Source: Pedobacter sp. KBW06 (GTDB taxonomy: Bacteria; Bacteroidota; Bacteroidia; Sphingobacteriales; Sphingobacteriaceae). Taken from it: a stretch of 64,000 bases of DNA. A model generated the notes under the pieces. That model did not search any database, was not told where the DNA came from, and was given only the letters and a program-made list of their open reading frames with translations. The stretch covers positions 1,749,268-1,813,267 of the forward strand of contig NZ_QAJL01000001.1 in NCBI RefSeq assembly GCF_003852525.1, in the 5' to 3' direction. The translations under genes were made by a program, and so were the position numbers. Shown in pieces: positions 8,459 through 33,570 of the stretch (the stretch's first letter is position 1; the number at the start of each line of letters is the position of its first letter).

Positions 8459-8501
8459 AAAAAGCCGGATGATTTCAATTTACAAAATTATCCGGCTTTT
8501 T
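8459..8501 (-). terminator. Rho-independent terminator of the phosphodiesterase-like gene
   Basis: AAAAAGCCGGAT (8459-8470) pairs with ATCCGGCTTTTT (8490-8501), 12 bp, loop 19 bases. Read leftward it ends in a T tract just after the stop of the gene at 8513. Confidence 0.75.
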
Positions 8502-16712: not shown

Positions 16713-18545
16713 TTAGTAGTTTTTATGAAGCCTGGTATTGTATACGTCGTCCCAGGTGATGTACGGATAGAGGTTAAACTTCTTTGCCTGAACTTCAAAC
16801 AATGCCTTTAGCTCTTCCAGCTTTGCCGGATTTTTCTTTGCCAGGTCAATGCGTTCATTAAAATCTTCATTCAGGTTATACAGTTCCCAAACATTCTCCA
16901 CATAATTTTTCGGAAGCCCTTCTTTGTTATTCGATAAATCCAGCAAATCCGGATGATAGGAAAGTGCAGCCTTCCAGCCATCTTTATAAATTGACCTTGC
17001 GCCAAAAATATAATAGTGTTGAATGCGGTGTTGTGAAGCTGCTTTTGCATCCTCAAAAGAGTAGACCAGAGAGGTTCCCTGTATGGAATCCTGTTTAATG
17101 CCTCTGATGTATTCAGGTGCTTTAATCCCGGTATATTCCAGCGTAGTTGGCAATAAATCGATGACGTGACCATATTGGGTCCGGATGCTGCCCTTATCTT
17201 TTATGCCTTTAGGATAATAAACGATCAATGGATTCCTCGTTCCTCCTTCGGAATTTGCGTCTTGTTTCCATTGCTTAAAAGGCGTATTCAAGGCCTGTGC
17301 CCATCCCAAAGGATAATTGCCCTGAATCGATCTGGGCGTACCGATCTCACCTGAAGCTTCCAGGTTATGTTTAATAATTTCCTGCTGACTCAGCTTATTG
17401 GTGGCCCCTCTTGGTAAATCTATTGTTCCGCTGAAGGTTCCTTCCTTACTCGCTCCATTGTCGCCGATGATCACAAAAACCAGGGTATTCTCCAATTGTT
17501 TAGTGGCTTTCAGGTAATTGATCACCCGTCCAACTTCATGATCCGTATAACTCAGATATCCCGCATAGACCTCCATAAAACGGGCATATAGTTTCCGTTC
17601 CTCCTCAGGAAGCTTATTCCAGGCTTTGATATTTGAATTGCGGCCGGGCAATACTGCATTGGCCGGAATAATTCCCAGTTGTTTTTGTCTTTTAAATACC
17701 TCATCTCTGAAAACATCCCAGCCTTTATCAAATTTACCTTTATAAAGGTCACTCCATTCTGTAGCCACCTGATGTGGGGAATGGGTGGCACCGGGTGCAT
17801 AATACAGGAAGAAAGGTTTTCCTGAATTGGCTTTTTGCTGTCTTTCAATAAAGTTGATTGCCTTATCGGTGATCTGCTCATTCAGGTGCCTGCCATCCGG
17901 TTGAACATGTGCGTTGTCTTCCACCAGATCGGGTTTATACTGATCCGTTGCAGAGCCGAGGAAGCCGAAGAAATGATCAAAACCTTTTCCGGTTGGCCAT
18001 CGGTCAAAAGGTCCGGCATCTGTAGCATCCTCATCAGGTGTCAATCCATATTTCCCTACTGCAAACGTATTATAGCCGCTTTCGCGCAGGATTTCGGCAA
18101 CTGTACCTTTATCCGAAGGGATGCGGCCATCATAACCTGGAAATCCGGCCGACATCGCCACATGCGCAAACCCGCCCATATGTACAGAATGACTGTTCCT
18201 GCCTGTCAGCAATGCGGACCTTGTAGGCGCACATATGGCTGTGGTATGAAAATTTGTATACGTTAATCCCTGATGTGCCAGGCTATCAAAGGTAGGGGTA
18301 CTGATCACTCCCCCCAATGTGCTGGTGGCCCCAAAGCCCACATCATCGAGTAAAATCCAGAGTACATTTGGTGCGCCTGCCGGTGCCTTAACCGGCTTTG
18401 TCCAGGATTCTCTGGAATCTGCCAGGGTCTTACCGATAACGCCCTGAAAAGCTTGTTGCTGCTGTGTGATATTTTGCGAATAGCCCTCAAGGTAGCTGAA
18501 CGCAGTGCCCAGGAGAATCCAGGCGGTGATGATTCTTTTTTTCAT
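16713..18545 (-). CDS. Cys-type arylsulfatase, exported (last gene of the sulfur-scavenging operon)
   Basis: 610 residues with a signal peptide (ending G-Y-S-Q). The sulfatase signature C-A-P-T-R-S-A-L-L-T-G-R holds Cys105, the residue converted to formylglycine by FGE, and Arg109. Metal ligands are in L-L-D-D-V-G-F-G (about 65-72) and I-I-G-D-N-G-A-S. Overall layout is the arylsulfatase A/AtsA type (S1_4-like). The product would hydrolyse sulfate esters in the periplasm and release sulfate. It lies 11 bp downstream of the rhodanese-thioredoxin gene. The native substrate cannot be read from sequence. Confidence 0.9.
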   Translation of the reverse strand: MKKRIITAWILLGTAFSYLEGYSQNITQQQQAFQGVIGKTLADSRESWTKPVKAPAGAPNVLWILLDDVGFGATSTLGGVISTPTFDSLAHQGLTYTNFHTTAICAPTRSALLTGRNSHSVHMGGFAHVAMSAGFPGYDGRIPSDKGTVAEILRESGYNTFAVGKYGLTPDEDATDAGPFDRWPTGKGFDHFFGFLGSATDQYKPDLVEDNAHVQPDGRHLNEQITDKAINFIERQQKANSGKPFFLYYAPGATHSPHQVATEWSDLYKGKFDKGWDVFRDEVFKRQKQLGIIPANAVLPGRNSNIKAWNKLPEEERKLYARFMEVYAGYLSYTDHEVGRVINYLKATKQLENTLVFVIIGDNGASKEGTFSGTIDLPRGATNKLSQQEIIKHNLEASGEIGTPRSIQGNYPLGWAQALNTPFKQWKQDANSEGGTRNPLIVYYPKGIKDKGSIRTQYGHVIDLLPTTLEYTGIKAPEYIRGIKQDSIQGTSLVYSFEDAKAASQHRIQHYYIFGARSIYKDGWKAALSYHPDLLDLSNNKEGLPKNYVENVWELYNLNEDFNERIDLAKKNPAKLEELKALFEVQAKKFNLYPYITWDDVYNTRLHKNY

Positions 18546-18556: not shown

Positions 18557-19300
18557 CTAATTACTTTTTGCCGGTTTTGTTTGATGTTCTGCAACAGCGG
18601 CTTCAATTTCCGCTGAGGTCGATTGCCCTGCTCTCTTCCAGATCTCTTTTTTATGGTGATACAGGACCAGTGTGGGAAGCTGATTAATTTTCAATTCTTT
18701 GAGGAGCGCCGTCTGATCATAGGCTTCAATCCTTACTATTTTGGCAGAAAATCCTGCTTTCTTTTCCAGCGTGTCCAGCACAGGAACAAGCTTCTTACAG
18801 GCGCCACAATATTTGGAACCAAAGTCTACCAACACAAAATCTGAAGATGCATTTAGGGTCTGAAACTGAGCAAGGGATAGCGATACGCCTTTCTTCGCAT
18901 GGTTTACGATCGGGTATCCTGAACCGATCCAGTTGGCAATTCCACCGGGAAGCACAATCACTTCCCTGAATCCCCTTTCCCGGAGTTTTTTTGCCAATGC
19001 CACACTTCGGCCATTGGCAATGGAGTAAACAAAGGTGGGCTTCTCTTTAGACAAAGCCGCGATGTCCTTTTCGTGACTAGCTGAGGCGGGATCAATATTG
19101 ATCGCTCCTGCCAGGTGATTCTGTGCAAATTCTTCGCTCGTTCTGGCATCCAGAATCTGGGCGTCCGCAGCTTTTGCTTTTGTAGCCAATGCGGCGAGTG
19201 AAAGTGATCCTGCCTGAGTAGCGGATGAGGTTTCTTGTGCTTTTAAGCTGCCTGACGATAAGAGCAGCAAACTAAAAAAAACAGATTTTAAAGATTTCAT
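18557..19300 (-). CDS. Exported rhodanese-thioredoxin fusion with inactivated rhodanese site
   Basis: 247 residues from the ATG at 19300, which gives a signal peptide (M-K-S-L-K-S-V-F-F-S..L-K-A-Q); an upstream ATG at 19330 overlaps the previous gene. Residues about 30-130 form a rhodanese domain, but the active loop reads V-Y-S-I-A-N-G-R-S, with Ser93 where the sulfur-carrying Cys should be. Residues about 140-235 form a thioredoxin domain with C-G-A-C (Cys165, Cys168) and the cis-Pro in N-Q-L-P-T. The protein is therefore a periplasmic redox protein. Lying between two FGE-dependent sulfatases, it could supply thiols for sulfatase maturation or protect the active-site Cys; this is inference. 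Confidence 0.85.
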   Translation of the reverse strand: MKSLKSVFFSLLLLSSGSLKAQETSSATQAGSLSLAALATKAKAADAQILDARTSEEFAQNHLAGAINIDPASASHEKDIAALSKEKPTFVYSIANGRSVALAKKLRERGFREVIVLPGGIANWIGSGYPIVNHAKKGVSLSLAQFQTLNASSDFVLVDFGSKYCGACKKLVPVLDTLEKKAGFSAKIVRIEAYDQTALLKELKINQLPTLVLYHHKKEIWKRAGQSTSAEIEAAVAEHQTKPAKSN

Positions 19301-19326
19301 TTTTTGTCGGTTTAGGTGATCAATAA

Positions 19327-20928
19327 TCATTTGATTTTATTCCAGTCCTGAACCCCAACTTTAGCGGCCCATTCCAGGTATTTTTTTTCCAGTTCTTTTA
19401 CCTTCCCCGGATACTTCCGGGCAAGGTCATTTGTTTCTGTCCGGTCTGACTTCAGATTGTACAATTCCCAGGTTCCATTGAGTTCAGCAACGAGTTTCCA
19501 GTCCTGCTCCCGAACAGCCCTGCTTCCTTCATGCTCCCAAAACAACCTGGAATGCAGCGCTTCTTTCTTTCCTTTTAAAACCCTCAGCAGGCTATGTCCC
19601 GGCAATGCCGTTAAAGAATTTCCTTTAAAAGAATCCGGGTATTTTGCCCCGGTAAGCTCCAGGATACCGGGTAGGATATCGATGAGGTGTGCGGGCTGTT
19701 CATTTAAAGCCCCCGAAGGGATCAAACCAGGATACCAGGCAATAAAAGGACTGGAAATCCCTCCTTCATGGGTGTTTTTCTTGAACATACGAAACGGGGT
19801 ATTGCTCGCATTCCCCCAGGGGGCTTCATAACTGTCTATGGAATTTACACTTCCTGGAGTTCCGTTTTTTTGACTGACATAGTTCCAGTTTTTCACTTCA
19901 TCGGCACTGCCTCCATTATCAGAAAGAAAAATCACCAGTGTGTTTTTATCTCTTTTGATCTCTTTCAGTTTATTCAGGATCTCCCCTATTCCTGCATCCA
20001 TACGGTCAATCATGGCCGCATAAATCGCCATGCGGGTATCCCAGTTGTCTTTTTCTTCCGCAGACAAGGATTTCCAGGCTTTCACATTTTCGAACCTCGG
20101 CGATAATCGCCATTCTTTCCTGATCAAACCTGAAGCCCGAAGTTTCTGATAACGCTGCTTCCTCAGTTCATCCCAGCCAGACAGGTACCGGCCTTTATAT
20201 TTCGCAATGTCTTCCGGCAAAGCCTGAATTGGCCAGTGAGGCGCATTGTAAGCCACATAAAGAAAAAATGGATTGGGTTGATCTTTGATTTCGTCCAGAG
20301 ATTTGATTGCGAAATTGGTGATGGCTTGTGTGAGATACAACGAAGTATCCTGACGCTGAATTTCCTGTCCGTTCAACTGGAAAGTAACCGTTCTTCCATC
20401 GTTATACAGGGGCTTGGAATTAAAATAACTGCTGCCATTGTTTTGCAGCGTGAAAGATTTATCAAATCCACGGTTCAGCGCAAAAGCGGAAGGAACGAGG
20501 CCCACATGCCATTTCCCGGAAACTATGGTTTGGTATCCCTGCGGTTTCAGCAATTCAGCAATCGTTGCACTATGCTTACTCAAATACCCCTGGTAAGCTT
20601 CCGTTCCTTTGTTCTGAACCATATCACCAACTCCGGCCTGATGCGGATAAAGACCTGTCAGCAAAGAAGCGCGGGAAGGACAGCACCTTCCGGCATTGTA
20701 AAACTGGTTTAAGATCATTCCTTCTTTTGCCAGTTGATCTAATACAGGAGTATGGATCTCCGAACCAAATGCACCAATGTCAGAAAAGCCGAGATCATCA
20801 GCAAGAATGATCAGTACATTCGGCTTAGCCTTTAATTTTTCTTCCGGTCTTCCTAGTTGCGCAGAAGCCGAACAAATGTTTAATCCAAAAAAGATGGCCG
20901 TTAAAAAACTGATTCGTTGATTCATCAT
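19327..20928 (-). CDS. Cys-type arylsulfatase, exported
   Basis: 533 residues with a signal peptide (ending C-S-A-S-A-Q). The signature R-C-C-P-S-R-A-S-L-L-T-G places Cys82 as the formylglycine precursor, and I-L-A-D-D-L-G-F-S-D (about 41-50) and F-L-S-D-N-G-G-S supply calcium ligands. It is closest in layout to Pseudomonas AtsA-type arylsulfatases (S1_4), enzymes classically induced by sulfur starvation. It follows SusD by 21 bp, and precedes the rhodanese-thioredoxin gene, so it is in the middle of the operon. Confidence 0.9.
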   Translation of the reverse strand: MMNQRISFLTAIFFGLNICSASAQLGRPEEKLKAKPNVLIILADDLGFSDIGAFGSEIHTPVLDQLAKEGMILNQFYNAGRCCPSRASLLTGLYPHQAGVGDMVQNKGTEAYQGYLSKHSATIAELLKPQGYQTIVSGKWHVGLVPSAFALNRGFDKSFTLQNNGSSYFNSKPLYNDGRTVTFQLNGQEIQRQDTSLYLTQAITNFAIKSLDEIKDQPNPFFLYVAYNAPHWPIQALPEDIAKYKGRYLSGWDELRKQRYQKLRASGLIRKEWRLSPRFENVKAWKSLSAEEKDNWDTRMAIYAAMIDRMDAGIGEILNKLKEIKRDKNTLVIFLSDNGGSADEVKNWNYVSQKNGTPGSVNSIDSYEAPWGNASNTPFRMFKKNTHEGGISSPFIAWYPGLIPSGALNEQPAHLIDILPGILELTGAKYPDSFKGNSLTALPGHSLLRVLKGKKEALHSRLFWEHEGSRAVREQDWKLVAELNGTWELYNLKSDRTETNDLARKYPGKVKELEKKYLEWAAKVGVQDWNKIK

Positions 20929-20949: not shown

Positions 20950-22500
20950 TTACCATCCAGGATTCTGGATGAGTTTGGTATTCAAATCGATTTCCTGTTG
21001 AGGAATTGGAAAGAGCAGATGTTTGGGAACAGAAACATTGACCTTTCCTACTTTCCTTAATGCATCTTCCAGGATAATTTTTCCTGACGCATCTTTCTCC
21101 CTGATCAGGTCAAACCAGCGTTGATTTTCCCAGACCAGCTCCAGACGACGGTCGAGGTAGAGCGCTTCCCTGAATTGCGCTTTGTTTAAGCCAGCCAGTA
21201 GCGTTAAACCTGCCCTTTCCCGCACCCGGTTATAAGCTGCATACGCTTTTGCAGTAGGCCCGTTAGCTTCATTTTCGGCCTCTGCAAGATTGAGCAATAC
21301 TTCCGAATATCTGATCACAGGTACATTGGCAGCAGATTCACTGAGGTTCGAAGATTGATTCGGGTCCCAATATTTATTGAGATAAGGGATGGAATCTCCG
21401 GGAATAGATTTATCGTTTAAGTCCCCATACCACTTGCCATCAGTGCCCAGAAAGCGGGTCACAAAACTACCGTTCTTCTTTCTCTTATCATTGGCTTCAT
21501 AGAGCTTATAGATGCTGAAAAACTTATCCGTTCCCTGGGTATAAAACCGAACCTGATCCGTATAAGAACCGACCATTCCCGGAACACCTGAGCGCGCACC
21601 TCTTGGTGCCTGATTGTTTCCCTGGCTCAGGGAATTGGATTTAAACTGTGCAGAAAAGATATGTTCTTTCCCGTTTTTATAAGCAGGAAGAAAAACCTGT
21701 GCATAGTCTGCAAACAAATCATACCGATACGGACTGGATCCGGATGCATAAGGAAAAGCTCCCGTTACCTCTTCTGCTTTTGCCACTGCTTCAGTCCATT
21801 TTCCCTGTGTCAGGTATACCTTAGACAACAATGACTTCGCCGCGCCCGCCGTTGCCCTTCCAATGTCCACCCCGGTATAGCTATCCGGTAATGCCAATGC
21901 CGCCTCTGTAAAATCCTTTTCAATCTGTACATATACCTCAGCCACCGTATTCCGGGCGATCTGGAAATCCGAGATGGTCACTCCCGGCTGATCGTGCAGG
22001 ATCAGCGGTACCCCTCCGAACAAACGAACCAGGTTGAAATAATACAGGGCCCTGAGGAGTTTAGCCTCCCCGATCAGTCTTTTCTTAAGGGCATCGGTCA
22101 ATGCGGCATCTTCAATTTCCGGAACTTTATCTATGGCAACATTTGCCTTTTTTATTCCTGCATAATGTTGCTGCCATAACTGCAGTACCCTGAGCCCTGT
22201 GGAAGAATGATTGAGCACAGCCTGTGAACGCACATCCGCATTGGTCGCTCCGGGTCCCGGATCGATGTCGTCAGACATGAAGTCCATGCCCGTAGCAAAC
22301 AAAGTATTGTACGGTGTCTGAACCGAAGGTCCTCCTGAGTTTAAAAGAAAATAGGCAGCATTAACCGCATTTACGGCATCTGCTTTTGTCTTATAGTATT
22401 CTGCTGCAGTAATAAAAGCGCCGGGATCTTCTTTTAATTTAGCGCAGGAACTCAGCACTGCGAGGGCAATCAGTAATGAAAAATATTTGAGGATATTCAT
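20950..22500 (-). CDS. SusD/RagB-family outer membrane lipoprotein
   Basis: 516 residues; lipoprotein signal with V-L-S-S-C-A-K. The tetratricopeptide-rich SusD fold is shown by A-A-Y-F-L-L-N, E-A-K-L-L-R-A-L-Y-Y-F-N-L-V-R-L-F-G-G-V-P-L (about 143-163), P-V-I-R-Y-S-E-V-L-L-N-L-A-E-A and the C-terminal L-F-P-I-P-Q-Q-E-I. It caps the SusC transporter and captures ligand at the cell surface. It is 19 bp downstream of SusC. Given the sulfatases downstream, the ligand is likely a sulfate ester or sulfated glycan. Confidence 0.92.
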   Translation of the reverse strand: MNILKYFSLLIALAVLSSCAKLKEDPGAFITAAEYYKTKADAVNAVNAAYFLLNSGGPSVQTPYNTLFATGMDFMSDDIDPGPGATNADVRSQAVLNHSSTGLRVLQLWQQHYAGIKKANVAIDKVPEIEDAALTDALKKRLIGEAKLLRALYYFNLVRLFGGVPLILHDQPGVTISDFQIARNTVAEVYVQIEKDFTEAALALPDSYTGVDIGRATAGAAKSLLSKVYLTQGKWTEAVAKAEEVTGAFPYASGSSPYRYDLFADYAQVFLPAYKNGKEHIFSAQFKSNSLSQGNNQAPRGARSGVPGMVGSYTDQVRFYTQGTDKFFSIYKLYEANDKRKKNGSFVTRFLGTDGKWYGDLNDKSIPGDSIPYLNKYWDPNQSSNLSESAANVPVIRYSEVLLNLAEAENEANGPTAKAYAAYNRVRERAGLTLLAGLNKAQFREALYLDRRLELVWENQRWFDLIREKDASGKIILEDALRKVGKVNVSVPKHLLFPIPQQEIDLNTKLIQNPGW

Positions 22501-22519: not shown

Positions 22520-25500
22520 TTAAAAGGAAAGGGACGCACCAGCCATGATGGTCTTGCTATTGGGATAAACTCCGTTGTCTACACCCGAATTGATCGCCGA
22601 CTGTCCGTTAAAGTTCGCTTCAGGATCGTAACCTGTATAATTGGTCCAGGTCCAGAGGTTCTGTGCAGAAATGTACACCCGCAGGTTTCTCAATCTTGCT
22701 TTATTTAAGACCTTTTGAGGTAAAGTATAGCCCAGGGAAAGGTTTTTTAAACGCAGATAAGAAGCATTTTCAATAAAGCGGTCTGCAATGGTTACCGCCG
22801 GATCGGTATAGGCACTGTGTACATCTGTATTGGTATTTGATGCAGAATAGCGGTTCAGCAGGCTACGGGGCGCATTGGTATAACCGGTCCCCAGCTCTAA
22901 AGTACCCCTGTTCTGGTTGTAAAGCTTATTTCCGTAAGAGGTTTGAAAAAATACAGACAGGTCAAATCCCCGAAAGCTGAAATTATTTGTCAGCCCGCCG
23001 GTAAATAAAGGCTGGTTGGAGATGATGAACCTGTCGCCGGCCTGGGTAATGACCCCATCGCCGTTTTTATCTACATATTGTTGTCCGCCCGCAGCTTTAT
23101 TCGAAGAAGGGGTTAAAGCCTTTCCCGGAGGAGTTCCTGCGGGAATCAATCCGTTTGTTTTATAGACAATAAAAGAACCGATTGGATATCCCACTGCAGC
23201 AATAGAAGGTAAGGAGCTGTCCGGAATGATCTGGTTTACCTTATCCAGGCTCAGCACTTTATTCCTGTTGATGGCAAAAATCACATTGGTTCCCCACTTG
23301 AAATCCCCGACAAGGTTTTTAGTATTGAGGCCCAGTTCAAAACCTTTATTCTCTACTGCTCCGATATTTTGATAAATCTGACTTTGAAGGGTAGAAAAAT
23401 CCAGTAATCCACTTGTTGCGGGTACGGTAATGTTGTACAGCAGATCCCTTGTTTTCTTATAATAGACATCTGACACCAGGTTAATACGGCTGTTAAACAA
23501 AGACAGATCGATCCCCAGATTATACTGTGCGGTCTTTTCCCAGGTAAGGTTAGGATTGGCATTCGTACCCGGCGCAAAGCCAGAGACATTATTGCCATTG
23601 AAATTATAACGGTAAAAAGTTTCTCTTGCAAAAGATTGATAAGCGGGGATTTCCTGATTTCCGGTCAGTCCGGCACTAAAGCGGAGCTTTAGATTCGAAA
23701 TGGCCTGCTGGTCTTTCAGAAAACTTTCTTCACTTACATTCCAGGCAATGGCAGCCGAAGGAAAGGTTCCCCATTGGTGGCCATCGGAAAAACGGGAAGA
23801 GCCATCCGCCCGAAGGGTCAGGGTGAGGAGATATTTATTCCCGTAGCCATAATTTACCCTCGCCAGAAAGGAATTCAGTGCGGTAGCATAGGACGATGAA
23901 GAAGGTGTCTGAGAGGTAATCCCCGAAGAAAGGTCATTAAAGCTCGTTCCATCCGAAGCAAAGCCCGCCGCCGCAGCAATCGCCCCTTTGGTTACCGCAG
24001 CTTCCTGTGTGAAACCAATTAATGCATTAAGGTTATGGATTTCATTGATCTTCTTCGTATAGCTCAGCGTATTTTCATTGAGCCATCGGGTGGTAAACAA
24101 ACTTCCTACCTGTCCAAGCCCTGAAACACCTGTACCTTCATATACGGTAGAAGGCAGGTACCTGTTTTGCTTATTGTCCACGATCAAAATACCCGCAGAA
24201 ACTTTGGCTTGTAAACCTTCGATGATGCGGTAGTCTGCAGAAGCATTTCCCAGGACCAGATTGGTCCTGGTTTCATTCAACTGGTTGTATAAAGTATTGA
24301 TCGGATTTCCATAAGCCCCTTCAAAAGGACTCTTCAGGAAAAAAGAGCCATCAGGATTATAGAGGGGAACTGCAGGAGACATCAGCAATAAATTAGGCAC
24401 CACTGCCTGAGGAGCAATCTGTGCTTTGGAACTGCTCCCGGCAATGTAGGAAACGATTTTCAGGCGTTCGTTGTACTGATGCTCTACATTTAGCCGACCT
24501 GAATAGCGACTAAAATCTGTATTTTGCAAGACCCCTTCCTGTTTAAAATAATTTCCGGAAAGGGCAAACTTTGTTTTTTCAGAACCGGTTAACACGGAGA
24601 TATTATGACTCTGAACCGGGGCAGTACGAAAAGCAGCAGCCTGCCAGTCCGTACCCGTCCCCAGGGCATCAATCTGTGCCTGGGTATAATAAGGTGCTTT
24701 TCCCGCATTGATCAGCGCATCATTTCTTAGCGCTCCCCATTCAGCGGCGTTGAGTAATGGAAGAGTTTTTACTACTTTCTGCGAGCCATAATAGCTGTCG
24801 AAATTAATAGATGATTTCCCTGCAGTCCCCTTTTTTGTATTGATGATGATGACCCCGTTGGCCCCTCTGGAACCATATATAGCTGTAGAGGAAGCATCTT
24901 TCAACACATCAATCGACTCAATATCTCCGGGATTTATCGCAGAGAGCAGGTTAATTTTAGGCCCATTGCTCACTCCGGCATCTGCCAGTTTTTCATCGTT
25001 ATAAAAAGGAAAACCATCGATCACATAGAGCGGCTGCGAACCTGCAGTAAGCGAGGCAGAACCACGGACCTGCACACTTACCCCTCCTCCGGGCTGTCCG
25101 GTAGATTGCGTAACCTGAACTCCGGGAATGGACCCTTGCAGCAAACGCTCCGGAGAGCTCACCGGCTGTCCTCTTACTTCTTCCAGTTTCAGGGAAGAGA
25201 CAGATCCGGTCACATCTTTTCTGCGTTGTGTTCCATAACCAACCACAACTACATCATTCAGGTTATTGCTGATTTCTTTTAGCAAGACCTCGACCGGGCT
25301 TCCGGTGACATTCAGTTCGATCCTTTCATAACCGATATAGCTAATGATTAAGGTATATGGGAACTTCTGTCCCGTTTTAAAGTTGAAACGGCCCTTGTCG
25401 TCTGTGGCGACCTTATGTGTTGTTCCTTTAATCTGTATCAGCACGCCCGGAAGCACCTCTTTGGTTTTTGCATCGAGCACCTGTCCTACCAGCGTAGAAT

Positions 25501-25690
25501 TAATAATCGGCTGATTCTCCTGCGCTTTTAGCACAAGAGGAAACAAGAAAAGCAACTGCAGGCAAAAGATGATCAGCGCAACAGAGAAAATATATTTTGA
25601 CTTTTCCGTAAACGAAGTGGTAGTTGTCCAGACTCCCGGACGGGTTAAAGACAGGGCATAACGCTCCCTCTCCTTAGCAAGGTATTGCAT
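22520..25690 (-). CDS. SusC/RagA-family TonB-linked outer membrane transporter
   Basis: 1056 residues. A carboxypeptidase-D-like sandwich (about 65-145; G-Q-V-L-D-A-K-T-K-E-V-L-P-G-V) leads to a TonB-type box region V-V-V-V-G-Y-G-T-Q, then the plug domain with the SusC signature G-S-R-G-A-N-G-V-I-I-I-N-T-K-K-G, and the 22-strand barrel. The N-terminus is odd: 30 charged residues (M-Q-Y-L-A-K-E-R-E-R-Y..) precede the signal-peptide core, with no nearer ATG. The frame is open a further 19 codons upstream without a start. It imports the ligand captured by SusD using TonB energy. A 99-bp gap before it contains one copy of a diverged direct repeat. Confidence 0.93.
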   Translation of the reverse strand: MQYLAKERERYALSLTRPGVWTTTTSFTEKSKYIFSVALIIFCLQLLFLFPLVLKAQENQPIINSTLVGQVLDAKTKEVLPGVLIQIKGTTHKVATDDKGRFNFKTGQKFPYTLIISYIGYERIELNVTGSPVEVLLKEISNNLNDVVVVGYGTQRRKDVTGSVSSLKLEEVRGQPVSSPERLLQGSIPGVQVTQSTGQPGGGVSVQVRGSASLTAGSQPLYVIDGFPFYNDEKLADAGVSNGPKINLLSAINPGDIESIDVLKDASSTAIYGSRGANGVIIINTKKGTAGKSSINFDSYYGSQKVVKTLPLLNAAEWGALRNDALINAGKAPYYTQAQIDALGTGTDWQAAAFRTAPVQSHNISVLTGSEKTKFALSGNYFKQEGVLQNTDFSRYSGRLNVEHQYNERLKIVSYIAGSSSKAQIAPQAVVPNLLLMSPAVPLYNPDGSFFLKSPFEGAYGNPINTLYNQLNETRTNLVLGNASADYRIIEGLQAKVSAGILIVDNKQNRYLPSTVYEGTGVSGLGQVGSLFTTRWLNENTLSYTKKINEIHNLNALIGFTQEAAVTKGAIAAAAGFASDGTSFNDLSSGITSQTPSSSSYATALNSFLARVNYGYGNKYLLTLTLRADGSSRFSDGHQWGTFPSAAIAWNVSEESFLKDQQAISNLKLRFSAGLTGNQEIPAYQSFARETFYRYNFNGNNVSGFAPGTNANPNLTWEKTAQYNLGIDLSLFNSRINLVSDVYYKKTRDLLYNITVPATSGLLDFSTLQSQIYQNIGAVENKGFELGLNTKNLVGDFKWGTNVIFAINRNKVLSLDKVNQIIPDSSLPSIAAVGYPIGSFIVYKTNGLIPAGTPPGKALTPSSNKAAGGQQYVDKNGDGVITQAGDRFIISNQPLFTGGLTNNFSFRGFDLSVFFQTSYGNKLYNQNRGTLELGTGYTNAPRSLLNRYSASNTNTDVHSAYTDPAVTIADRFIENASYLRLKNLSLGYTLPQKVLNKARLRNLRVYISAQNLWTWTNYTGYDPEANFNGQSAINSGVDNGVYPNSKTIMAGASLSF

Positions 25691-25697: not shown

Positions 25698-25772
25698 AGG
25701 TTTAAAATGACTTGATCTGAACAGGTCCAACGCCAATTGATTTCCTGTTCTTTATATTATTAATCGTTAGGG
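25698..25772. repeat. Copy 1 of a diverged ~75-bp direct repeat
   Basis: Shares with 27556-27627 the order AGGTTTAAA(A)TGAC, then an identical 15-mer CAGGTCCAACGCCAA (25722-25736), then TTATTAATC-TTAGGG. It lies in the gap before SusC. Confidence 0.6.
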
Positions 25773-25789: not shown

Positions 25790-26755
25790 TTATCCCGCCG
25801 CGGCCGATACTTCTTTTAAGGCCAGTTCCCGTTCTCCATTGTTTTGATGAACTGCTCTGATCGTTAACAAATCTCTTTCTTCAATTGGAATGTCCTGCTT
25901 AACAATAGGTCCATCTGCTGCCAGCTCACTTCCCGCCACGTTGGATTTAAAGATCGGCCATAACAATTGTGCATACCATGGATCTCCTTCATAATGAGAA
26001 ATTCCATAAGCAGAAGGATACTGCCTGGAGATATGTGCTGTTCCAAAAATAACATCCCAGAGAAAAAACATGTTTCCGAAGTTGCCCTTATAATAACCTA
26101 CGCCATCATCTGTGGTTGCTGCATGGTGTGCATGATGCGTTGCAGGGGTAGAAATCAAACGCTCCAGAACCCAGGCAATCGGATGCAGCACTTTATATTT
26201 ATAAAAAGGTTTGTCCCATGGAATGCTGGAATGCGCCAGTGTGGTAATGGTACTTTTTATCGCTCCAACGATAATTCTTGGTGCGCCCAGTCCTAGATAA
26301 ACGAGAATCGTCGTCACGTAAGTTTGAGAAAAGAACAGGGTATACAATGCGTTCTGGCGACTGGCCATTGCCATCCCCATATAGGAAGCGGAGTGGTGGG
26401 TCCGGTGAAAGCGCCATAACCAGGGAATTTCATGGTGCAGACGGTGGTACCAATATTGGGTCAGGTCGTCGGCAATGGCGATAATGAGCAATCCCCAACC
26501 GAAAGAAACCCAGTCGAACTCGTTCCTTAGTGCAGGAATCACTGCGGGTAAAAATTTCAGCCCGAAGAAAGCGATGGCCGGTCTGATGACCAGTTTTGGT
26601 AAAACAAAGCAGGCAATGTCTACAAATTTTTCATTTTTGTTCCAGCGCTTTTTATACAAGCCGAAAGAGAATTCCAGGACCCCTAAAATGAGGACCAGTA
26701 CACTGAGTCCATAGCCATTCAGGTTATCGATAATTTGTTGGATAATTTTAATCAT
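25790..26755 (-). CDS. Sterol desaturase/fatty acid hydroxylase superfamily membrane protein
   Basis: 321 residues with several membrane segments in the first 160 and the di-iron histidine clusters of the superfamily: H-R-L-H-H, H-R-T-H-H-S and H-H-A-H-H. Such enzymes hydroxylate or desaturate lipids or small membrane substrates with O2. It is co-directional with, and 37 bp downstream of, two small membrane proteins and upstream of SusC, so it belongs to the sulfatase operon. A role in processing the sulfur-containing substrate, or in modifying sulfonolipids, is possible but unproven. Confidence 0.85.
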   Translation of the reverse strand: MIKIIQQIIDNLNGYGLSVLVLILGVLEFSFGLYKKRWNKNEKFVDIACFVLPKLVIRPAIAFFGLKFLPAVIPALRNEFDWVSFGWGLLIIAIADDLTQYWYHRLHHEIPWLWRFHRTHHSASYMGMAMASRQNALYTLFFSQTYVTTILVYLGLGAPRIIVGAIKSTITTLAHSSIPWDKPFYKYKVLHPIAWVLERLISTPATHHAHHAATTDDGVGYYKGNFGNMFFLWDVIFGTAHISRQYPSAYGISHYEGDPWYAQLLWPIFKSNVAGSELAADGPIVKQDIPIEERDLLTIRAVHQNNGERELALKEVSAAAG

Positions 26756-26792: not shown

Positions 26793-26957
26793 TTAGGGTT
26801 TAATCACTTGGCCGATTTTGGTGGTTTTCTTTAACCAGGGTCGCTGCCCGGTAAAATAAAAGGTAAAAAACATCAGCAGTATGGGCAGTGCATAGATAAA
26901 CAGGCTCAGGAAGATGTTCCTGATGATTCTTTTCTTTACTGATTCTTCAATTTTCAT
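26793..26957 (-). CDS. Small single-pass membrane protein (54 aa)
   Basis: Below usual length cut-offs but convincing: start at 26957 (alternative in-frame ATG at 26963), stop at 26793. It begins M-K-I-E-E-S-V-K-K-R-I-I-R-N, has one hydrophobic segment (about 15-36), then F-T-G-Q-R-P-W-L-K-K. The basic N-terminus before the segment suggests N-in topology. It sits 37 bp upstream of the desaturase gene and 53 bp downstream of another small membrane gene. I do not recognise the family; a subunit or electron-transfer scaffold for the desaturase is a guess. Confidence 0.65.
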   Translation of the reverse strand: MKIEESVKKRIIRNIFLSLFIYALPILLMFFTFYFTGQRPWLKKTTKIGQVIKP

Positions 26958-27010
26958 AAGCATGTTTTTTTGTGGTTTTAATGGATACGATCAGGAGGAT
27001 ATCCCCGATC

Positions 27011-27169
27011 TTATTTAAGGTTTAGGGTGCGGGTTGGGGAAGAAGGTGGATCCGTTAAGATTTTCTGGATCAGCCAAAGGCCTCCTAAAAGAATGACCAG
27101 CGGAACGGTAGCTACTACGATTCCCACTGCAATCTTCTTTCCGATCAGTTGTACGTCTGAAATGGTCAT
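27011..27169 (-). CDS. Small single-pass membrane protein (52 aa)
   Basis: Start at 27169, stop at 27011. The peptide starts M-T-I-S-D-V-Q-L-I-G-K-K, has one hydrophobic segment (about 13-36; I-V-V-A-T-V-P-L-V-I-L-L-G-G-L-W) and a polar tail rich in Pro and Thr. It is the first gene after the leader region, 10 nt beyond the stop of the second upstream ORF, which suggests translational coupling. Family unknown. Frames on either strand overlapping it give Arg/Ser-rich nonsense, supporting this frame. Confidence 0.65.
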   Translation of the reverse strand: MTISDVQLIGKKIAVGIVVATVPLVILLGGLWLIQKILTDPPSSPTRTLNLK

Positions 27170-27178
27170 ATATTGATT

Positions 27179-27235
27179 TTATGGTGTGACAGGAAACAGT
27201 AAGCCATGGCAATAGCCTTCAACATGAGATTTCAT
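27179..27235 (-). CDS. Upstream ORF 2 (18 aa) in the sulfatase-operon leader
   Basis: ATG at 27235, stop at 27179; peptide MKSHVEGYCHGLLFPVTP. The stop is 10 nt before the start of the first membrane protein, so its translation could gate or couple to that start. It contains one Cys and no hydrophobic segment. It may simply be a leader; no family is recognised. Confidence 0.45.
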   Translation of the reverse strand: MKSHVEGYCHGLLFPVTP

Positions 27236-27306
27236 GGTGTTTTTTGAACTCCTGCTCTTTTACTAAAAATTACGTGCTTATTTGGCTGTCGAAAGGATAC
27301 AGCAGA

Positions 27307-27348
27307 TTAACAGCAACAACAGCATCCTGCCTTAGAAAGGGAGGACAT
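27307..27348 (-). CDS. Poly-cysteine leader peptide (13 aa) of the sulfatase operon
   Basis: ATG at 27348, stop TAA at 27307; peptide MSSLSKAGCCCCC, five consecutive Cys codons (TGC TGT TGT TGC TGT) directly before the stop. It begins about 80 nt after the predicted transcription start and 138 nt before the first structural gene. Cys-rich uORFs that stall when cysteinyl-tRNA is scarce are known in mycobacteria and other bacteria upstream of sulfur genes. Here it precedes sulfatases, so a cysteine-sensing attenuator is the natural reading. The Cys run (GCTGT) can pair with ACAGC just downstream, and TCCTCC in the start region could pair with AGGAG near 27250, offering alternative structures. 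Confidence 0.7.
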   Translation of the reverse strand: MSSLSKAGCCCCC

Positions 27349-27428
27349 CAAATATTCATTTGCAATAATGAACTTTAAATCGGGATGTAGGTTTGAACTT
27401 AACATCGTTATACTGTGTGAGTTATATT

Positions 27429-27466
27429 GTTAATACAAATATAGAATTTGAATCCAACAATACAAA
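27429..27466 (-). promoter_or_regulatory. Bacteroidota primary promoter of the sulfatase operon
   Basis: On the minus strand TTTG (27466-27463) is followed by exactly 19 bases and TATATTTG (27443-27436), matching the TTTG-N19-TAnnTTTG consensus in full. Predicted start near 27429. Confidence 0.75.
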
Positions 27467-27495
27467 TTAATTCTACTAAATAAGTAGAATTAATT
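27465..27495. promoter_or_regulatory. Perfect 13-bp palindrome (operator candidate)
   Basis: AATTAATTCTACT (27465-27477), AAATA spacer, AGTAGAATTAATT (27483-27495). The promoter-proximal arm overlaps the -33 TTTG by two bases. A related TCTACTAA..GGAATTAAT element stands before the second SusC operon (33610-33633), which suggests one shared regulator. The dyad layout is compatible with an Rrf2- or MarR-type dimer, but the family is not determinable. Confidence 0.65.
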
Positions 27496-27555: not shown

Positions 27556-27627
27556 AGGTTTAAATGACAAGATTGAATCAGGTCCAACGCCAAAATGAAC
27601 ACCCGGTTTAGTTATTAATCCTTAGGG
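27556..27627. repeat. Copy 2 of a diverged ~75-bp direct repeat
   Basis: Core 15-mer CAGGTCCAACGCCAA (27579-27593) is identical to 25722-25736; flanks AGGTTTAAATGAC and TTATTAATCCTTAGGG match with small gaps. The two copies bracket the leader, small membrane proteins and desaturase gene. Confidence 0.6.
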
Positions 27628-28575: not shown

Positions 28576-30015
28576 TTATTTAATATCGAACCAAAGGCGG
28601 GTCGTGAGTAAATCTGCACCTTGTCTGGCCACTGCCTGCTGGTAATTTTTTCCATTCAGGGATTGCTCCTGCCCCGGATAGATAAACCTGAGCGGCAGCT
28701 TTCCACCCAGCACACCTGCTACTGCAGGAACAAGCTCCGGATAATCCAGCCTGCGCCATTCGGCAAAGGCTTCTAATCCCTGTCCGAATAAAGCGATCCA
28801 CTTTTGATTGCCGATAGATTTCCTGAAATTAGCAGGCTCATACTGCACAGCGGCAGATTGAGTATAGCTTGCAATGGCGGCCGTTCCAATTCCATATTGT
28901 AACAGCGACGCTTCTATTGCTTGCTTGTACAATACTGCGGCATCCTCACTACTCCAGCCTCTTGCAGCTACCTCTGCCCGGTCGAACAATACTTCCGCAT
29001 AACTGATGATCACTGCCGGAGCGGTTGGGGCCAGGAAATAAGTCCCGGGTTTGGAAGTTTTACTCAGCCCATAATTACTGGCATCACCTGTAAGCAAACC
29101 ATTTGGAATGCCGATATAGGTTTCTGTCGTTACATCTTTTGTCGGGCTCGCAAAGACCGGAAGCCTTGGATCATTCAATGACCTCAACTTATCGACAATA
29201 GTTTTACTCATTCTGTAATCATCACGCGTATCAAATAAATTGCTTACCGGATTTTGATTGGGAGAGGTGGAATAGCTGAGTTGTGCATTTTCCAGATTGG
29301 ACGTAATCAGGCCCCCTCCTTCAGCCGTCAGCTCTGCCAGTACGGACTTTGATTTTTCCGGTTCCTTATCGGCGATACGCAGAGCGATGCGCAAACGCAG
29401 TGCATTGGCAAACTTTTTCCAAAGCTCAATTTTACCGTTGTAAATGATGTCTCCCAGGATTGGCTTTCCTGCAACATTCAAATCCGTCTGTGCAGATTTC
29501 AAATCGGCAAGCAATCCGTAATACACATCTTTCTGTGTATCATAAACGGGATTCACATAGGCATTAATCTGTACAGATTGCGAATAAGGAATATCGCCGT
29601 AAGCATCCGTCAGCAATAAAAACACCCATGATCTCAATACCTTGGCAACTCCTTTGTAATTGGTATTTCCCTGCTCATCGGCCAGGCTCAGCAGCTTATT
29701 CAGATTGGTTACTCCTTTGGTATAACCCGATACCCATAATTCCTGAAGGTCATTATTGGTAAAGATATACCTGTCCGGATCTGTATACTGGATTTTAGAC
29801 CAGTGTTGAATAAACAACAAACTGGAATTCATGTTATTGGTTACGCCCCAATACGTATCAGCCGTACTTTTAATCGCTCCGGTGAGCAGGTAATCCGGTT
29901 GTGGTATTTCAGCAGAATTTGGATTCTTATTCAGGTCTGCCAGCTGGTCCTTGCAGGAGCTGAAAGATAGGACAAGGAGGGTCGAAAATAGAATTGGAAT
30001 ATAGTTGAATTTCAT
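28576..30015 (-). CDS. SusD/RagB-family lipoprotein (SusD-like_2 type)
   Basis: 479 residues with lipobox F-S-S-C-K. The N-terminus L-A-D-L-N-K-N-P-N-S-A-E-I-P-Q-P-D-Y-L-L and the absence of the classic L-R-A-L-Y-Y-F-N block point to the SusD-like_2 branch. Further markers are R-S-W-V-F-L-L-L-T-D-A-Y-G-D-I-P-Y and W-K-K-F-A-N-A-L-R-L-R-I-A-L-R-I. This branch often goes with peptide or other non-glycan ligands, in line with SAM-riboswitch control, but the ligand cannot be read. It is 5 bp downstream of SusC. Confidence 0.9.
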   Translation of the reverse strand: MKFNYIPILFSTLLVLSFSSCKDQLADLNKNPNSAEIPQPDYLLTGAIKSTADTYWGVTNNMNSSLLFIQHWSKIQYTDPDRYIFTNNDLQELWVSGYTKGVTNLNKLLSLADEQGNTNYKGVAKVLRSWVFLLLTDAYGDIPYSQSVQINAYVNPVYDTQKDVYYGLLADLKSAQTDLNVAGKPILGDIIYNGKIELWKKFANALRLRIALRIADKEPEKSKSVLAELTAEGGGLITSNLENAQLSYSTSPNQNPVSNLFDTRDDYRMSKTIVDKLRSLNDPRLPVFASPTKDVTTETYIGIPNGLLTGDASNYGLSKTSKPGTYFLAPTAPAVIISYAEVLFDRAEVAARGWSSEDAAVLYKQAIEASLLQYGIGTAAIASYTQSAAVQYEPANFRKSIGNQKWIALFGQGLEAFAEWRRLDYPELVPAVAGVLGGKLPLRFIYPGQEQSLNGKNYQQAVARQGADLLTTRLWFDIK

Positions 30016-30020: not shown

Positions 30021-33000
30021 TTAGAATTTAAGGTTAAGGTTGAAACCGAATGATCTCGCTGTTGGAAGGCTCAGGTCTTCCAGTCCTTGTGCATTTCCGG
30101 TATTAAATGCAGTTTCCGGATCGATATTTGGCACATTTTTATGAATGATCCACAGGTTTCGTCCTACCAGTGAAAAGACTGCATTCTGAAAGCCTATTTT
30201 TTTAGTCCATTGTCCCGGCAAGCTATAGCTAAGTTTCACCTCTCTCAGTTTGATATAAGAAGCATCATAGATAAACTGCTCATCCACATTGGTAATGCCT
30301 TTATAATATTGCTGAGCAGGAACAATCCGGCTATTTTTTGTCCCATCGGCCAATACTCCGTCAAAGACCATCCCATCAGTATATACCACTTCTCCTCCCG
30401 GAGCCTGTGCGCCATTTGAAAGGCCAACCGCTGTTCCGGAATTCACATTGCCCGGGAAATAATAGCTCAGGCCACCGTTTTCTGTATTTCTTCCCTTCAA
30501 AGTACTTGCAAGAACACCGGTATAGGTTCCGGTACGGTTTGAATTCGAGTATACTTTACCACCGATTCTGGCATCCACCAGGAAGTTCAGGTTGATATTT
30601 TTATAAGTAAAGCTGTTGCTGATTCCACCAAGCCAGTTGGGTGTAAACTTCCCCAGGTATTGTTTTGCCGGATTGATCACTGGTGTCCCTCCCGCGCTGA
30701 TGAGAATCTGACCGGCAGCATTTCGCTGATAAGCAGTTCCGAAAAAGGTACCATAAGGCTTTCCAATTGTTGCCAACACATCAACCGTTCTGTTGCTCCC
30801 GATCGTATAACTGCTGATCAGTCCTTCTTTATCCAATTCCGTCACCTTACTGCGGTTCAGCGCATAGTTCAGGTTGATGTCCCAGCTAAAGTCCTGCGAT
30901 TTCACCGGGCTTAAGCCCAGTTGAACTTCCAATCCTTTATTATTGATGCTTCCGCCATTGATTAATTTCTGATTGTAACCTGTCGAAGAACTTACATTCA
31001 CTTTTAAAATCTGGTTGATACTATTGGTATTGTAAACACTCAGGTCCAGCTTTACGCGGTTGTCAAACAAACCAACTTCAATCCCCGCCTCGGCAGATTT
31101 GGTGATCTCGGGCAGCAGGTTTGGATTTAACTCCACCAAACTTGCTGCCTGCTGTGGATTTCCATTAAAGGGTGCGGTAAAACTATAGGTATTTACCAGC
31201 TGATAAGGTTCTGTCGCCTTACCTACTTTTGACCAGCCTCCTCTGATTTTGGCAAAACTCAGCACTTCGTTTTTCAGGTCAAAGGCTTCGGTAAGGATCA
31301 AACTTCCATTTACTGAAGGATAGAAATAAGAGAGGTTTGGCCTTGGCAAACTGGAGTCCCAATCGTTCCTCGAGGTTAAATTCAGGAAGGCATAATCTCT
31401 ATAACCAAGCTGTGCCGAACCAAAGGTACTATAGGTTCTTAGTTTGCTGTAAAAGTTCGACGATACCAGTGGATCCCTGGAATTGTTTAAGGTATATAAA
31501 CCATTTACCGCTAATTTAGTCGCCATCTGGTCATTCTGTTCCAGCGTATTGGTCCTTACATTCACACCTGCCAAAATGTTAAGGGAGAAATCGTTGTTTA
31601 GTTTTTTATTAAACTCTAACCTGCCCTCTGTATTGTTTTCATTTACGGTGTAGGCATCTTCCTGATAGGATCCGAAAGGAGTTCCGTTTGTACCGTAGGC
31701 AATTTTTATTTTTCTGCGATCGGTATAATAATCATTCCCCGTTCTGAAATTTGCAGACAATGCATCCGTAATTTTATAGTTCAACTCTGCACTTCCAATG
31801 ATGCGGTCGCGTTTCTGACTTACTGTATTTTCATAAGCAATGAAATAAGGATTGCTGTAATAGCTGTTGTTCCAGTTGAAGTTATTTCCGTTCCCGTCCT
31901 TATATTGCTTAAGCTGGCTCACATCAACCTGTCGTCCGAACCAGGTAAACTGAAGCATCGGTCCGGTAGCCCGTTTACCACCTGATGCAGGCAGGTTTGC
32001 AGCACTGCTTTTGACATAATTGACACTGGCATTCAGGGTCAGCTTTGGCGTAATACGGTAGCTGGTATTCAGAAGTAAAGAATTCTTATTTTGCGAAGAA
32101 TTGGGTAATATCCCGCCCTGTGTCAGGTTGTTATAAGAAAAACGAACATCTTGTTTTTCTCCAGATCCGGCGATGGCAACGCCGTTGCTCAGGGCATAAC
32201 CCGTTTCGAAAAAGTCTCTTACATTATTTGGATGTGCAATAAAAGGTTCCGGTTTGCCATTGGTATTGAACTGAGGAATCAAACGGCCATCCAGTGCAGG
32301 ACCCCAGCTTTCATCTACTCCATCATTCAGGCCTCCTCCTTTACCATCTACATAACTAAACTTACCATTTGAACCCTGGCCAAAAGCATTCTGATACTTT
32401 GGAAGCGTCAGCAAATTAGAGATCGTGGTGTTCGAGTTGATACTAATGCCCAATCCCTGCTGTCCTCTTCCTGTTTTTGTTTTAATCAGAATCACCCCGG
32501 CGGCAGCCCTGGAGCCATATAAAGCGGCTGCATTCGGCCCTTTCAGTACGCTGATGGATTCTATATCTTCAGAATTGATGTCGGATATCGTATTGGCAAA
32601 ATCCCTGGAACCACCACTCCCAAGGAATTGAGAATTGTCTACCGGAACACCATCTACCACAAATAAGGGTTGATTCTGACTGGAAATAGAGGTTTCTCCA
32701 CGGATGATGATCCTTGAAGAGCCCATGTCTCCCTGACTGTTGGTGGTTTGTACACCCGCAATCTTTCCTGCCAGTGAATTGATGAGGTTGGTTTCTTTAG
32801 CCGTAGAGATGTCTTTGGATTTCAGCTCCTGTGTGGCATAACCCAACGATTTCTTGGCCTTGGTGATCCCTAATGCGGTTACCACTACTTCATTCAAATC
32901 ATTTAAAGATGGCTCGAGGCTAATCTTCAAATGACCGGTTCCTGCGGTAATCCTGATTTCTTTATTGGCATATCCGAGATAACTAATGCGAATCACATCG

Positions 33001-33209
33001 TTCAGGTTTGCCTGGAGAGAGAAGCTGCCATTTGCATCTGTAACCGCAGCATTGTCTTTTCCTTTGATCGTTACCGAAGCTCCGGGAATCGCCTGTCCGT
33101 CGGCACTGTCGCTCACCACACCGGTCACTTTAACAGACTGTGCCTGGGCCGTCAGCAGGAAAAAAAAGGACAAAGCAATCCCTATAAAAATTTTGTATAT
33201 TTTTAACAT
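30021..33209 (-). CDS. SusC/RagA-family TonB-linked transporter under SAM-I riboswitch
   Basis: 1062 residues with a signal peptide (ending T-A-Q-A-Q), regulatory-like sandwich (about 27-105; G-V-V-S-D-S-A-D-G-Q-A-I-P-G-A-S), E-V-V-V-T-A-L-G TonB-box region, plug with G-S-R-A-A-A-G-V-I-L-I-K-T-K and a C-terminal barrel. It starts 43 nt after the stop of a Cys-rich leader ORF and about 250 nt after a SAM-I riboswitch, so expression should rise when SAM is low. I infer import of methionine, peptides or another sulfur compound. Confidence 0.93.
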   Translation of the reverse strand: MLKIYKIFIGIALSFFFLLTAQAQSVKVTGVVSDSADGQAIPGASVTIKGKDNAAVTDANGSFSLQANLNDVIRISYLGYANKEIRITAGTGHLKISLEPSLNDLNEVVVTALGITKAKKSLGYATQELKSKDISTAKETNLINSLAGKIAGVQTTNSQGDMGSSRIIIRGETSISSQNQPLFVVDGVPVDNSQFLGSGGSRDFANTISDINSEDIESISVLKGPNAAALYGSRAAAGVILIKTKTGRGQQGLGISINSNTTISNLLTLPKYQNAFGQGSNGKFSYVDGKGGGLNDGVDESWGPALDGRLIPQFNTNGKPEPFIAHPNNVRDFFETGYALSNGVAIAGSGEKQDVRFSYNNLTQGGILPNSSQNKNSLLLNTSYRITPKLTLNASVNYVKSSAANLPASGGKRATGPMLQFTWFGRQVDVSQLKQYKDGNGNNFNWNNSYYSNPYFIAYENTVSQKRDRIIGSAELNYKITDALSANFRTGNDYYTDRRKIKIAYGTNGTPFGSYQEDAYTVNENNTEGRLEFNKKLNNDFSLNILAGVNVRTNTLEQNDQMATKLAVNGLYTLNNSRDPLVSSNFYSKLRTYSTFGSAQLGYRDYAFLNLTSRNDWDSSLPRPNLSYFYPSVNGSLILTEAFDLKNEVLSFAKIRGGWSKVGKATEPYQLVNTYSFTAPFNGNPQQAASLVELNPNLLPEITKSAEAGIEVGLFDNRVKLDLSVYNTNSINQILKVNVSSSTGYNQKLINGGSINNKGLEVQLGLSPVKSQDFSWDINLNYALNRSKVTELDKEGLISSYTIGSNRTVDVLATIGKPYGTFFGTAYQRNAAGQILISAGGTPVINPAKQYLGKFTPNWLGGISNSFTYKNINLNFLVDARIGGKVYSNSNRTGTYTGVLASTLKGRNTENGGLSYYFPGNVNSGTAVGLSNGAQAPGGEVVYTDGMVFDGVLADGTKNSRIVPAQQYYKGITNVDEQFIYDASYIKLREVKLSYSLPGQWTKKIGFQNAVFSLVGRNLWIIHKNVPNIDPETAFNTGNAQGLEDLSLPTARSFGFNLNLKF

Positions 33210-33252: not shown

Positions 33253-33363
33253 CTAGATGCCGCAACAACACATGGGTATGGCCTTGCACATGTATTTTCC
33301 GGATACAGGAAGGTAAAAAGATTTAGCGCAATTGGTTTTGTCAGGAAGTAATTGTAGGTTCAT
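33253..33363 (-). CDS. Cys-rich leader ORF (36 aa) of SusC/SusD unit B
   Basis: ATG at 33363, stop TAG at 33253. The peptide ends in MCKAIPMCCCGI: three consecutive Cys codons plus an earlier Cys-Lys and two Met codons. A shorter in-frame version begins at the ATG at 33291 (12 residues). No signal peptide or hydrophobic segment. Its position between a SAM-I riboswitch and SusC and its resemblance to the poly-Cys leader of unit A suggest a cysteine/methionine-sensing leader rather than a functional protein; a small metal-binding or modified peptide is the alternative. Confidence 0.55.
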   Translation of the reverse strand: MNLQLLPDKTNCAKSFYLPVSGKYMCKAIPMCCCGI

Positions 33364-33454: not shown

Positions 33455-33570
33455 ACTGCTTATCTTATTCGCTGTTTGCGAATTGGAATTAGCACCTTTT
33501 ACCGGGTCAACAGGTAGAGGTTGCTAAGACATCACAGGGCCATTCCCTCAGTCTTTCTGGATAAGTCGGA
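33455..33570 (-). promoter_or_regulatory. SAM-I (S-box) riboswitch
   Basis: Read leftward the conserved strings occur in order: CTTATC, GAGGGA, TGGCCC, GCAACC, AGGTGCTAATTCC, GATAAG. P1 is CTTATC (33565-33560) with GATAAG (33464-33459). P2 contains AAGAC with GTCTT around the invariant GAGGGA/TGGCCC loop, P3 is CCT-ACC with GGT-AGG, and P4 is ATTCGC with GCGAAT. All four helices are Watson-Crick. It starts about 18 nt after the predicted transcription start. No U-rich terminator follows, so the readout may be through translation of the following leader ORFs; an alternative AGCAG/CTGCT stem overlaps the end of P1. Confidence 0.93.

Follow-up and report, generated by a model that had tools for sequence, protein, structure and literature searches.

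A conserved cysteine-codon leader peptide as a candidate attenuator of a Pedobacter SusCD-sulfatase operon, with related leaders behind SAM riboswitches

Leader peptides with cysteine codons were predicted in 2005 before the cys operons of Mycobacterium and Propionibacterium acnes and before cbs of Bifidobacterium longum (PMC1262725), and leaderless polycysteine short ORFs are known from mycobacteria (Canestrari et al. 2020, as described in PMC9031893 and PMC13236596). An upstream ORF (uORF) motif termed uORFC-8-2 was predicted in 2021 before cysS of Rhodobacterales (PMC8632094). Riboswitch-controlled uORFs are reported from M. tuberculosis, involving Mbox and pe20 (PMC12810186) and B12 with ppe2 and metE (PMC11260477), and in Bordetella the uORF product CruR acts through ribosome stalling (PMC9426467). 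Two Bacteroidota transcriptome papers mention leader peptides in general terms.

The leader described here lies in a 64,000-nucleotide stretch of Pedobacter sp. KBW06 DNA (the window) and has what amino-acid leader attenuators have in general, a short leader ORF in which codons for the amino acid that the regulated pathway supplies stand in a row. With the leaders predicted in 2005 it shares a Cys run near the stop, sulfur genes as targets and the lack of a conserved terminator hairpin, and the authors of that work proposed Rho; it differs in phylum, and the published description of those leaders, so far as it goes, has no SAM riboswitch and names biosynthesis targets rather than a SusCD-sulfatase operon. 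The mycobacterial ORFs likewise have contiguous Cys codons, and elongation speed on Cys is described as regulating the genes downstream. However, those ORFs are leaderless whereas a 5' UTR of about 26 nt is predicted for the ORF of the window, and an output through uORF/SD pairing of the mycobacterial type finds no support in window-type leaders. The uORFC-8-2 motif also places tandem Cys codons in a uORF ahead of a cysteine-related gene, but as described it has two such codons, a conserved structure and an intrinsic terminator, whereas window-type leaders have no terminator and a divergent peptide. In the M. tuberculosis systems a riboswitch precedes a uORF, as in some of the leaders below, and in the case of pe20 the uORF is under the control of a translational platform and Rho is involved; the ligands are different, however, and no run of amino-acid codons in the uORF is mentioned in the abstracts. 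CruR is similar in that a ribosome stalled on the uORF blocks Rho and in the long spacer before the main gene, but it is described as a longer protein that senses copper via CXXC with a RAPP arrest motif. Among the matches listed in the open-licence literature there was no cysteine leader from Bacteroidota, no arrangement that puts a SAM riboswitch and an amino-acid leader in series and, in agreement with the original prediction, no example of such a leader on a Sus-type locus. Within the literature searched, the principle is known from Actinobacteria, and the phylum, the target operons and the pairing with a SAM riboswitch appear to be new.

The 13-codon ORF that had been proposed as a poly-cysteine leader is present on the minus strand, running from 27348 down to 27307 as ATG TCC TCC CTT TCT AAG GCA GGA TGC TGT TGT TGC TGT TAA and encoding MSSLSKAGCCCCC. 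Its proposed start has to be moved, as the open frame extends upstream to an ATG at 27405 and the conserved ORF has 32 codons (MLSSNLHPDLKFIIANEYLMSSLSKAGCCCCC, 27307..27405, minus strand), with the Cys codons TGC TGT TGT TGC TGT and the stop TAA at 27307..27324. A promoter ahead of the leader had also been proposed, and we too read one from the sequence: the predicted element is of the Bacteroidota type, TTTG-N19-TATATTTG (27436..27466, minus strand), with TTTG at 27466-27463, a 19-nt spacer and TATATTTG at 27443-27436. Because the TAnnTTTG box is reported at -12 to -5 in Flavobacterium (PMC9723704), we place the predicted +1 near 27431, about 26 nt upstream of the first ATG. Behind the leader stop is a spacer at 27170..27306 (minus strand), which from its sequence, folding and comparison is presumed to be the attenuation region. 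From the leader stop to the next small gene, the ORF at 27011-27169, the gap is 137 nt. The leader at 27307 has no RF00162 match, the sole Rfam match in the window being at 33457-33567, and ARAGORN finds no tRNA in the window. The 8.1-Mb genome has four copies of the pattern TGYTGYTGYTGYTAR, of which the three outside the leader are out of frame inside genes, and the run in the leader looks like more than chance.

On the same strand the leader is followed by two small hydrophobic ORFs, a fatty acid hydroxylase, SusC, SusD, a sulfatase, a rhodanese-thioredoxin fusion and a second sulfatase, and we predict that this is a sulfate-ester scavenging operon. The first conserved gene after the leader encodes 52 aa (27011..27169) and the next 56 aa (26793..26963), both without a Pfam match; the two are also present in related operons of two other genomes (G023 and G013). 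The fatty acid hydroxylase family protein (25790..26755, PF04116) precedes the SusC-like outer membrane transporter (22520..25690, named from sequence and neighbours) and the SusD-like lipoprotein (20950..22500, PF07980 and PF14322), and then come the sulfatase (19327..20928, PF00884), the rhodanese-thioredoxin fusion (18557..19330, PF00581 and PF00085) and the second sulfatase (16713..18545, PF00884).

Comparison of five homologous leaders, from the window, P. steynii (L055), P. caeni (L054), P. cryoconitis (L053) and a further genome (L016, G013), provides insight into what is conserved. The ATG equivalent to 27405, the frame and the terminal Cys run are kept in all five, with tails GCCCCC in the window and P. 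steynii, GRCCCR in P. caeni, GYCCCC in P. cryoconitis and GSYCCCC in L016. The internal start of the 13-codon ORF is ATG in three of the five and is replaced by ACG in P. caeni and by GTG in L016, and therefore the 32-codon ORF is the conserved unit. Between the window and P. steynii, whose SusC proteins are 96% identical in the best segment, the ORF has three differences, all of them synonymous (Lys, Ala and one Cys codon). Among the window, P. caeni, P. cryoconitis and L016, pN is below pS in five of six pairwise comparisons, the exception being window and P. caeni (pN 0.18, pS 0.10). Much of the peptide outside the Cys run is altered between relatives, and the spacer behind the ORF has gained and lost pieces. 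The alignment suggested originally as a check on conservation thus comes out in favour of the leader, with Cys codons kept at the codon level in all five and synonymous change inside the run. Regulatory codons kept through synonymous change are seen both in the window/P. steynii Cys codon and in the metY leaders described below, which use TGT 52 times and TGC 56 times.

The association of such leaders with sulfatase operons was examined using the window SusC as query, which gave 78 loci from named genomes, six of which were dropped as they had too little upstream DNA. A locus was scored as positive if an ATG ORF of 5-50 codons with at least 3/5 Cys near its end lay within 2 kb upstream of SusC. 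Among SusC genes that share a gene run with a sulfatase, 7 of 10 have such a uORF ahead of them, versus 1 of 62 others (L128); the Fisher p = 6.3e-7 is optimistic because three of the Pedobacter loci represent a single operon in close relatives. The proposed tie between the leader and the SusCD-sulfatase operon class is borne out by these counts. When the other 19 amino acids are put through the same test nothing comparable is seen, the best being Gly (p = 0.049) and Ala (0.09). The positive loci come from Pedobacter (four), Rhinopithecimicrobium, Flavobacterium taihuense and Chitinophaga sp. CF118, and sulfatase SusC loci without a Cys tail in the leader are L064, L070 and L104, and also L319 and L320.

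A second set of regions, overlapping the first (L015 = L053, L322 = L057), divides by the kind of sulfatase. Where the sulfatase scores >200 bits against either window sulfatase, the script finds the uORF in 7 of 12 SusC rows and a separate scan finds it in two more (L017, L019), the misses being L305 at 3590, L319 and L320. With weaker sulfatases the uORF is present in 2 of 8 rows (L221, L227), and with no sulfatase in the gene run in 3 of 15 (L018, L206 and L305 at 17737, whose class is limited by the end of the region at that point). These sequence counts suggest that the type of sulfatase matters for the presence of the uORF. No Cys leader is seen in eight other sulfatase regions taken from the genome of the window. 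In G209 and G244, from another family, the uORF would begin with TTG or GTG, as (M)KTTESISYSILSKKKTYNTSCCCMCFCC and two relatives, and in these two genomes and F. taihuense a second Cys mini ORF (MKKRMCCR, MKKMHNHCCK, MKKMYSNC, MKTMQTCCFK) lies directly before a hairpin. In the sulfatase operon at L018 (G009) SusC (5298-8497) is broken into two frames, of 745 and 409 aa, that overlap.

Beyond the leader originally proposed, the window contains a second Cys leader, which is preceded by a SAM riboswitch. The RF00162 aptamer (33457..33567, minus strand) scores 78.4 bits against a gathering score of 44.4, and the leader ORF MNLQLLPDKTNCAKSFYLPVSGKYMCKAIPMCCCGI (33253..33363, minus strand) lies 93 nt behind it and 43 nt before a second SusC (30021..33209, minus strand), which is followed by SusD (28576..30015, minus strand, PF12771). 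A search for orthologues of this SusC in 144 genomes of the genus gave 79 places, in 78 of the genomes, and the best 30 of these places were taken as loci. RF00162 is found at 27 of these 30, in L372 far upstream; an ATG uORF whose last ten residues include at least two Cys is present at 20 of the 30, in 19 cases along with the aptamer, and 10 of the 30 have no Cys-tail uORF.

The genome of the window has four SAM riboswitches, one of which precedes a PF01053 enzyme, which we take to be MetY-like, with the uORF MRTVKITSDSFNYCCPQHTICMCCCIR between them. Two more (L191, L194) have no Cys uORF in the scan, and the genes behind them look to us like cysteine desulfurase and MetH. A search for metY in 61 genomes of the family gave a match in 40, at 41 places, of which the best 30 were taken, and 24 of these 30 have RF00162 ahead of metY. 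At 22 of the 24 there is a uORF with at least two Cys in its last nine residues and an ATG 6-11 nt behind the aptamer (at L287 counted from the second ATG). Of the other two, L291 has a uORF without a Cys tail, while at L282 there is no uORF and the metY start itself follows 10 nt behind the end of the aptamer. Cys accounts for 93/198 (47%) of the residues in the last nine positions of the 22 uORFs versus 15/614 (2.4%) of those before, and Met for 27/198 versus 9/614; the peptide bodies vary widely and Cys and Met codons persist at the very end. At the six metY loci that lack an aptamer no such uORF stands in the corresponding position, although there are small scan matches at L267, L268 and L270. 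Under a common rule in which the uORF stop is 10-200 nt before the gene (by which L267 counts as positive), Cys tails are found at 23/30 metY, 19/30 second-SusC and 11/261 control genes, and Met tails at 7/30, 4/30 and 17/261, the 261-gene control leaving out loci already known to have a Cys leader. The tight coupling of aptamer and uORF is a feature of metY, as the gap at the second leader of the window is 93 nt.

Taking together the anatomy and conservation seen in these sequences (the ORF with its frame and start, the synonymous Cys codons, the operon association and the parallel at metY and the neighbouring SusCD locus), we think it likely that the window leader is a cysteine-codon attenuator of the SusCD-sulfatase operon, which senses a shortage of cysteinyl-tRNA and acts probably via Rho. 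In this model the leader ORF would be translated and the signal, as the natural inference, would be the charging of tRNA-Cys. When charged cysteinyl-tRNA is scarce, translation would stall at the Cys codons and the operon is predicted to stay on, so that stalling would be the event that switches it on. When cysteinyl-tRNA is ample the peptide would be finished fast, the spacer would be exposed, and the operon would be turned off, probably through Rho. At metY, bound SAM would likely block translation of the leader, because the aptamer ends 6-11 nt before its start codon. The metY pair would then be a two-input gate that opens when SAM and cysteine are both scarce, which is the simplest logic given that the aptamer abuts the leader start and that L282 is a natural variant with the aptamer on metY.

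How such a leader would act on its operon is where the alternatives diverge. The same Cys leader might have a classical output, with pairing of the Cys codons, a terminator/antiterminator switch or the uncovering of a start, and translational attenuation has been described for M. smegmatis (PMC9031893). The original prediction had pointed to a switch between GCTGT in the Cys run and ACAGC downstream. The complementarity is indeed there in the window, and also in P. steynii, but as a switch it does not hold up, since the window pairs like shuffled spacers (z = 0.05) and P. caeni has TCAGC instead of ACAGC. The same comparison, of the last eight codons and stop with the spacer against dinucleotide shuffles, was extended to 41 leaders (22 metY, 19 SusC-type), and pairing of the Cys tail as a general mechanism is rejected, with a mean z of -0.20 for the metY and -0.09 for the SusC-type leaders. 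The second Cys mini ORF of G209/G244 and F. taihuense, directly before a strong hairpin, would suit a classical output, but terminator-like sites occur in just 3 of the 41 leaders, and the intrinsic terminator with alternative pairing of the codon run that defines a trp-type attenuator is not found. Nor is masking of the downstream start supported as the output, as simulated stalling in 31 of the 41 leaders (spacers <=200 nt) gives no consistent change in the accessibility of the next start (metY means 0.63 free and 0.64 stalled, p = 0.13); the mycobacterial mode, in which stalling uncovers the downstream ribosome binding region, is thus not seen in silico in these 31. We therefore regard a classical output as unlikely. 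With three other modes of output unsupported, Rho-dependent attenuation is favoured by elimination and with low certainty, and shut-off by Rho is the weakest step of the model. Rho sites are expected to have C-rich, G-poor spacers. The proportion of C over G is 0.66 in metY spacers versus 0.54 in 398 control regions (p = 2e-6, a value that is optimistic, as are the others for the metY and SusC sets, because the sets hold related species); SusC-type spacers have a mean of 0.63, and the window spacer, at 0.53, is hardly C-rich.

It is also conceivable that the Cys-rich peptide acts itself, either by metal or redox sensing during its synthesis or as a small functional protein. CruR provides a precedent, as a uORF with a Cys motif that uses stalling and Rho (PMC9426467). 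However, the peptide bodies diverge widely while the terminal Cys and Met codons remain, no CXXC spacing is kept, Met is enriched as well as Cys (27/198 vs 9/614), and the targets are sulfur genes with none recognised as a metal gene, so we consider a function of the peptide itself quite improbable. To the idea that the Cys runs are a coincidence, with TGY runs arising from base composition or from out-of-frame reading of genes, we give almost no credence. It is true that the bare pattern TGYTGYTGYTGYTAR is matched in 128 of the 145 genus genomes and that, in the loci read, most matches lie within genes; genome-wide Cys patterns were abandoned as a sole detector, being too unspecific. But frame, start and stop are conserved with synonymous change, TGT and TGC are equally used, and Cys tails at metY and second-SusC loci far exceed those at control genes (23/30 and 19/30 vs 11/261); coincidence is already contradicted by these three observations.

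Returning to attenuation by Cys codons, the original prediction is right in substance, its start codon and pairing switch apart, and the finding reaches further than it: the leader of the window would belong to a regulon-like group of sulfur leaders, some of them wired to SAM riboswitches. The broader proposal is of a post-transcriptional sulfur regulon in Bacteroidota, made up of Cys/Met leader peptides ahead of metY, SusCD-sulfatase operons and further genes, with a SAM riboswitch in series at metY (there coupled directly to the leader's start codon) and at a SusCD locus, a two-input gate for SAM and cysteinyl-tRNA, and Rho as executor; it has in our estimation an even chance of being right. 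Bacteroidota play a major part in the degradation of sulfated organic matter, and to our knowledge their post-transcriptional control is little charted. If the model is correct, the cell's own cysteine charging would gate sulfate-ester scavenging, in place of the substrate or in addition to it, and one two-input device would combine a SAM riboswitch with an amino-acid leader. The Cys-codon pattern may also separate sulfur-supply from carbon-supply sulfatase operons, with 0/8 of the other sulfatase regions of the genome having it.

Wider scans touch on other possible targets. Among 30 genus loci that were read, two have intergenic ATG uORFs with a Cys tail, and both are ahead of PhyH-family genes (L039 in G024, where the gene is confirmed as PF05721, and L045 in G059), so these PhyH-like dioxygenases may have a role in sulfur supply; L028 has an intergenic Cys pattern without an ATG. 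In 60 loci read from the genome of the window (30 of 40 and 30 of 160 places) the window ORF is the only intergenic one with an ATG, and L147 is an intergenic Cys-tail ORF with a TTG start. A class-wide scan of the best 29 SAM riboswitch loci, many of which presumably precede metH, for ATG uORFs with 2 Cys in 4 codons gave matches at L256 (metY, CC) and L241 (CRC, 6 nt behind the aptamer). In L262 the Cys-rich ORF is inside the aptamer, and L238 and L246 are unrelated ORFs.

Several Cys-leader promoters have an operator-like palindrome nearby (ATTCTACT-N5-AGTAGAAT; CCTATAGGATTAGTAGA; TTCTATAGGATTTATAGAA), in the window at 27470-27490 and 33610-33626 and elsewhere at L017, L018, L039, L206 and L304-L306, which is perhaps the site of a sulfur regulator. 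As a shared operator it was discarded, since its consensus occurs near chance in the genome of the window (36 matches versus 29 in a reversed control), and in 30 palindrome loci that were read, seven of them intergenic, only the window's own site precedes a recognised sulfur gene. A hairpin with the loop CTGCGGNAACAG is present in the SusC leader of L059, L304, L305 (as a variant), L306 and L115, and in the first four it stands immediately after the second Cys-codon mini ORF. Finally, a TTGGCGTTGG-type element, often TCAATTGGCGTTGG, stands a short distance upstream of several SusC starts and recurs, in some relatives, within the Cys-leader spacer; it is found in the window at 27585-27593 and 25728-25736 (minus strand) and at L015, L016, L053-L057, L221 and L227.
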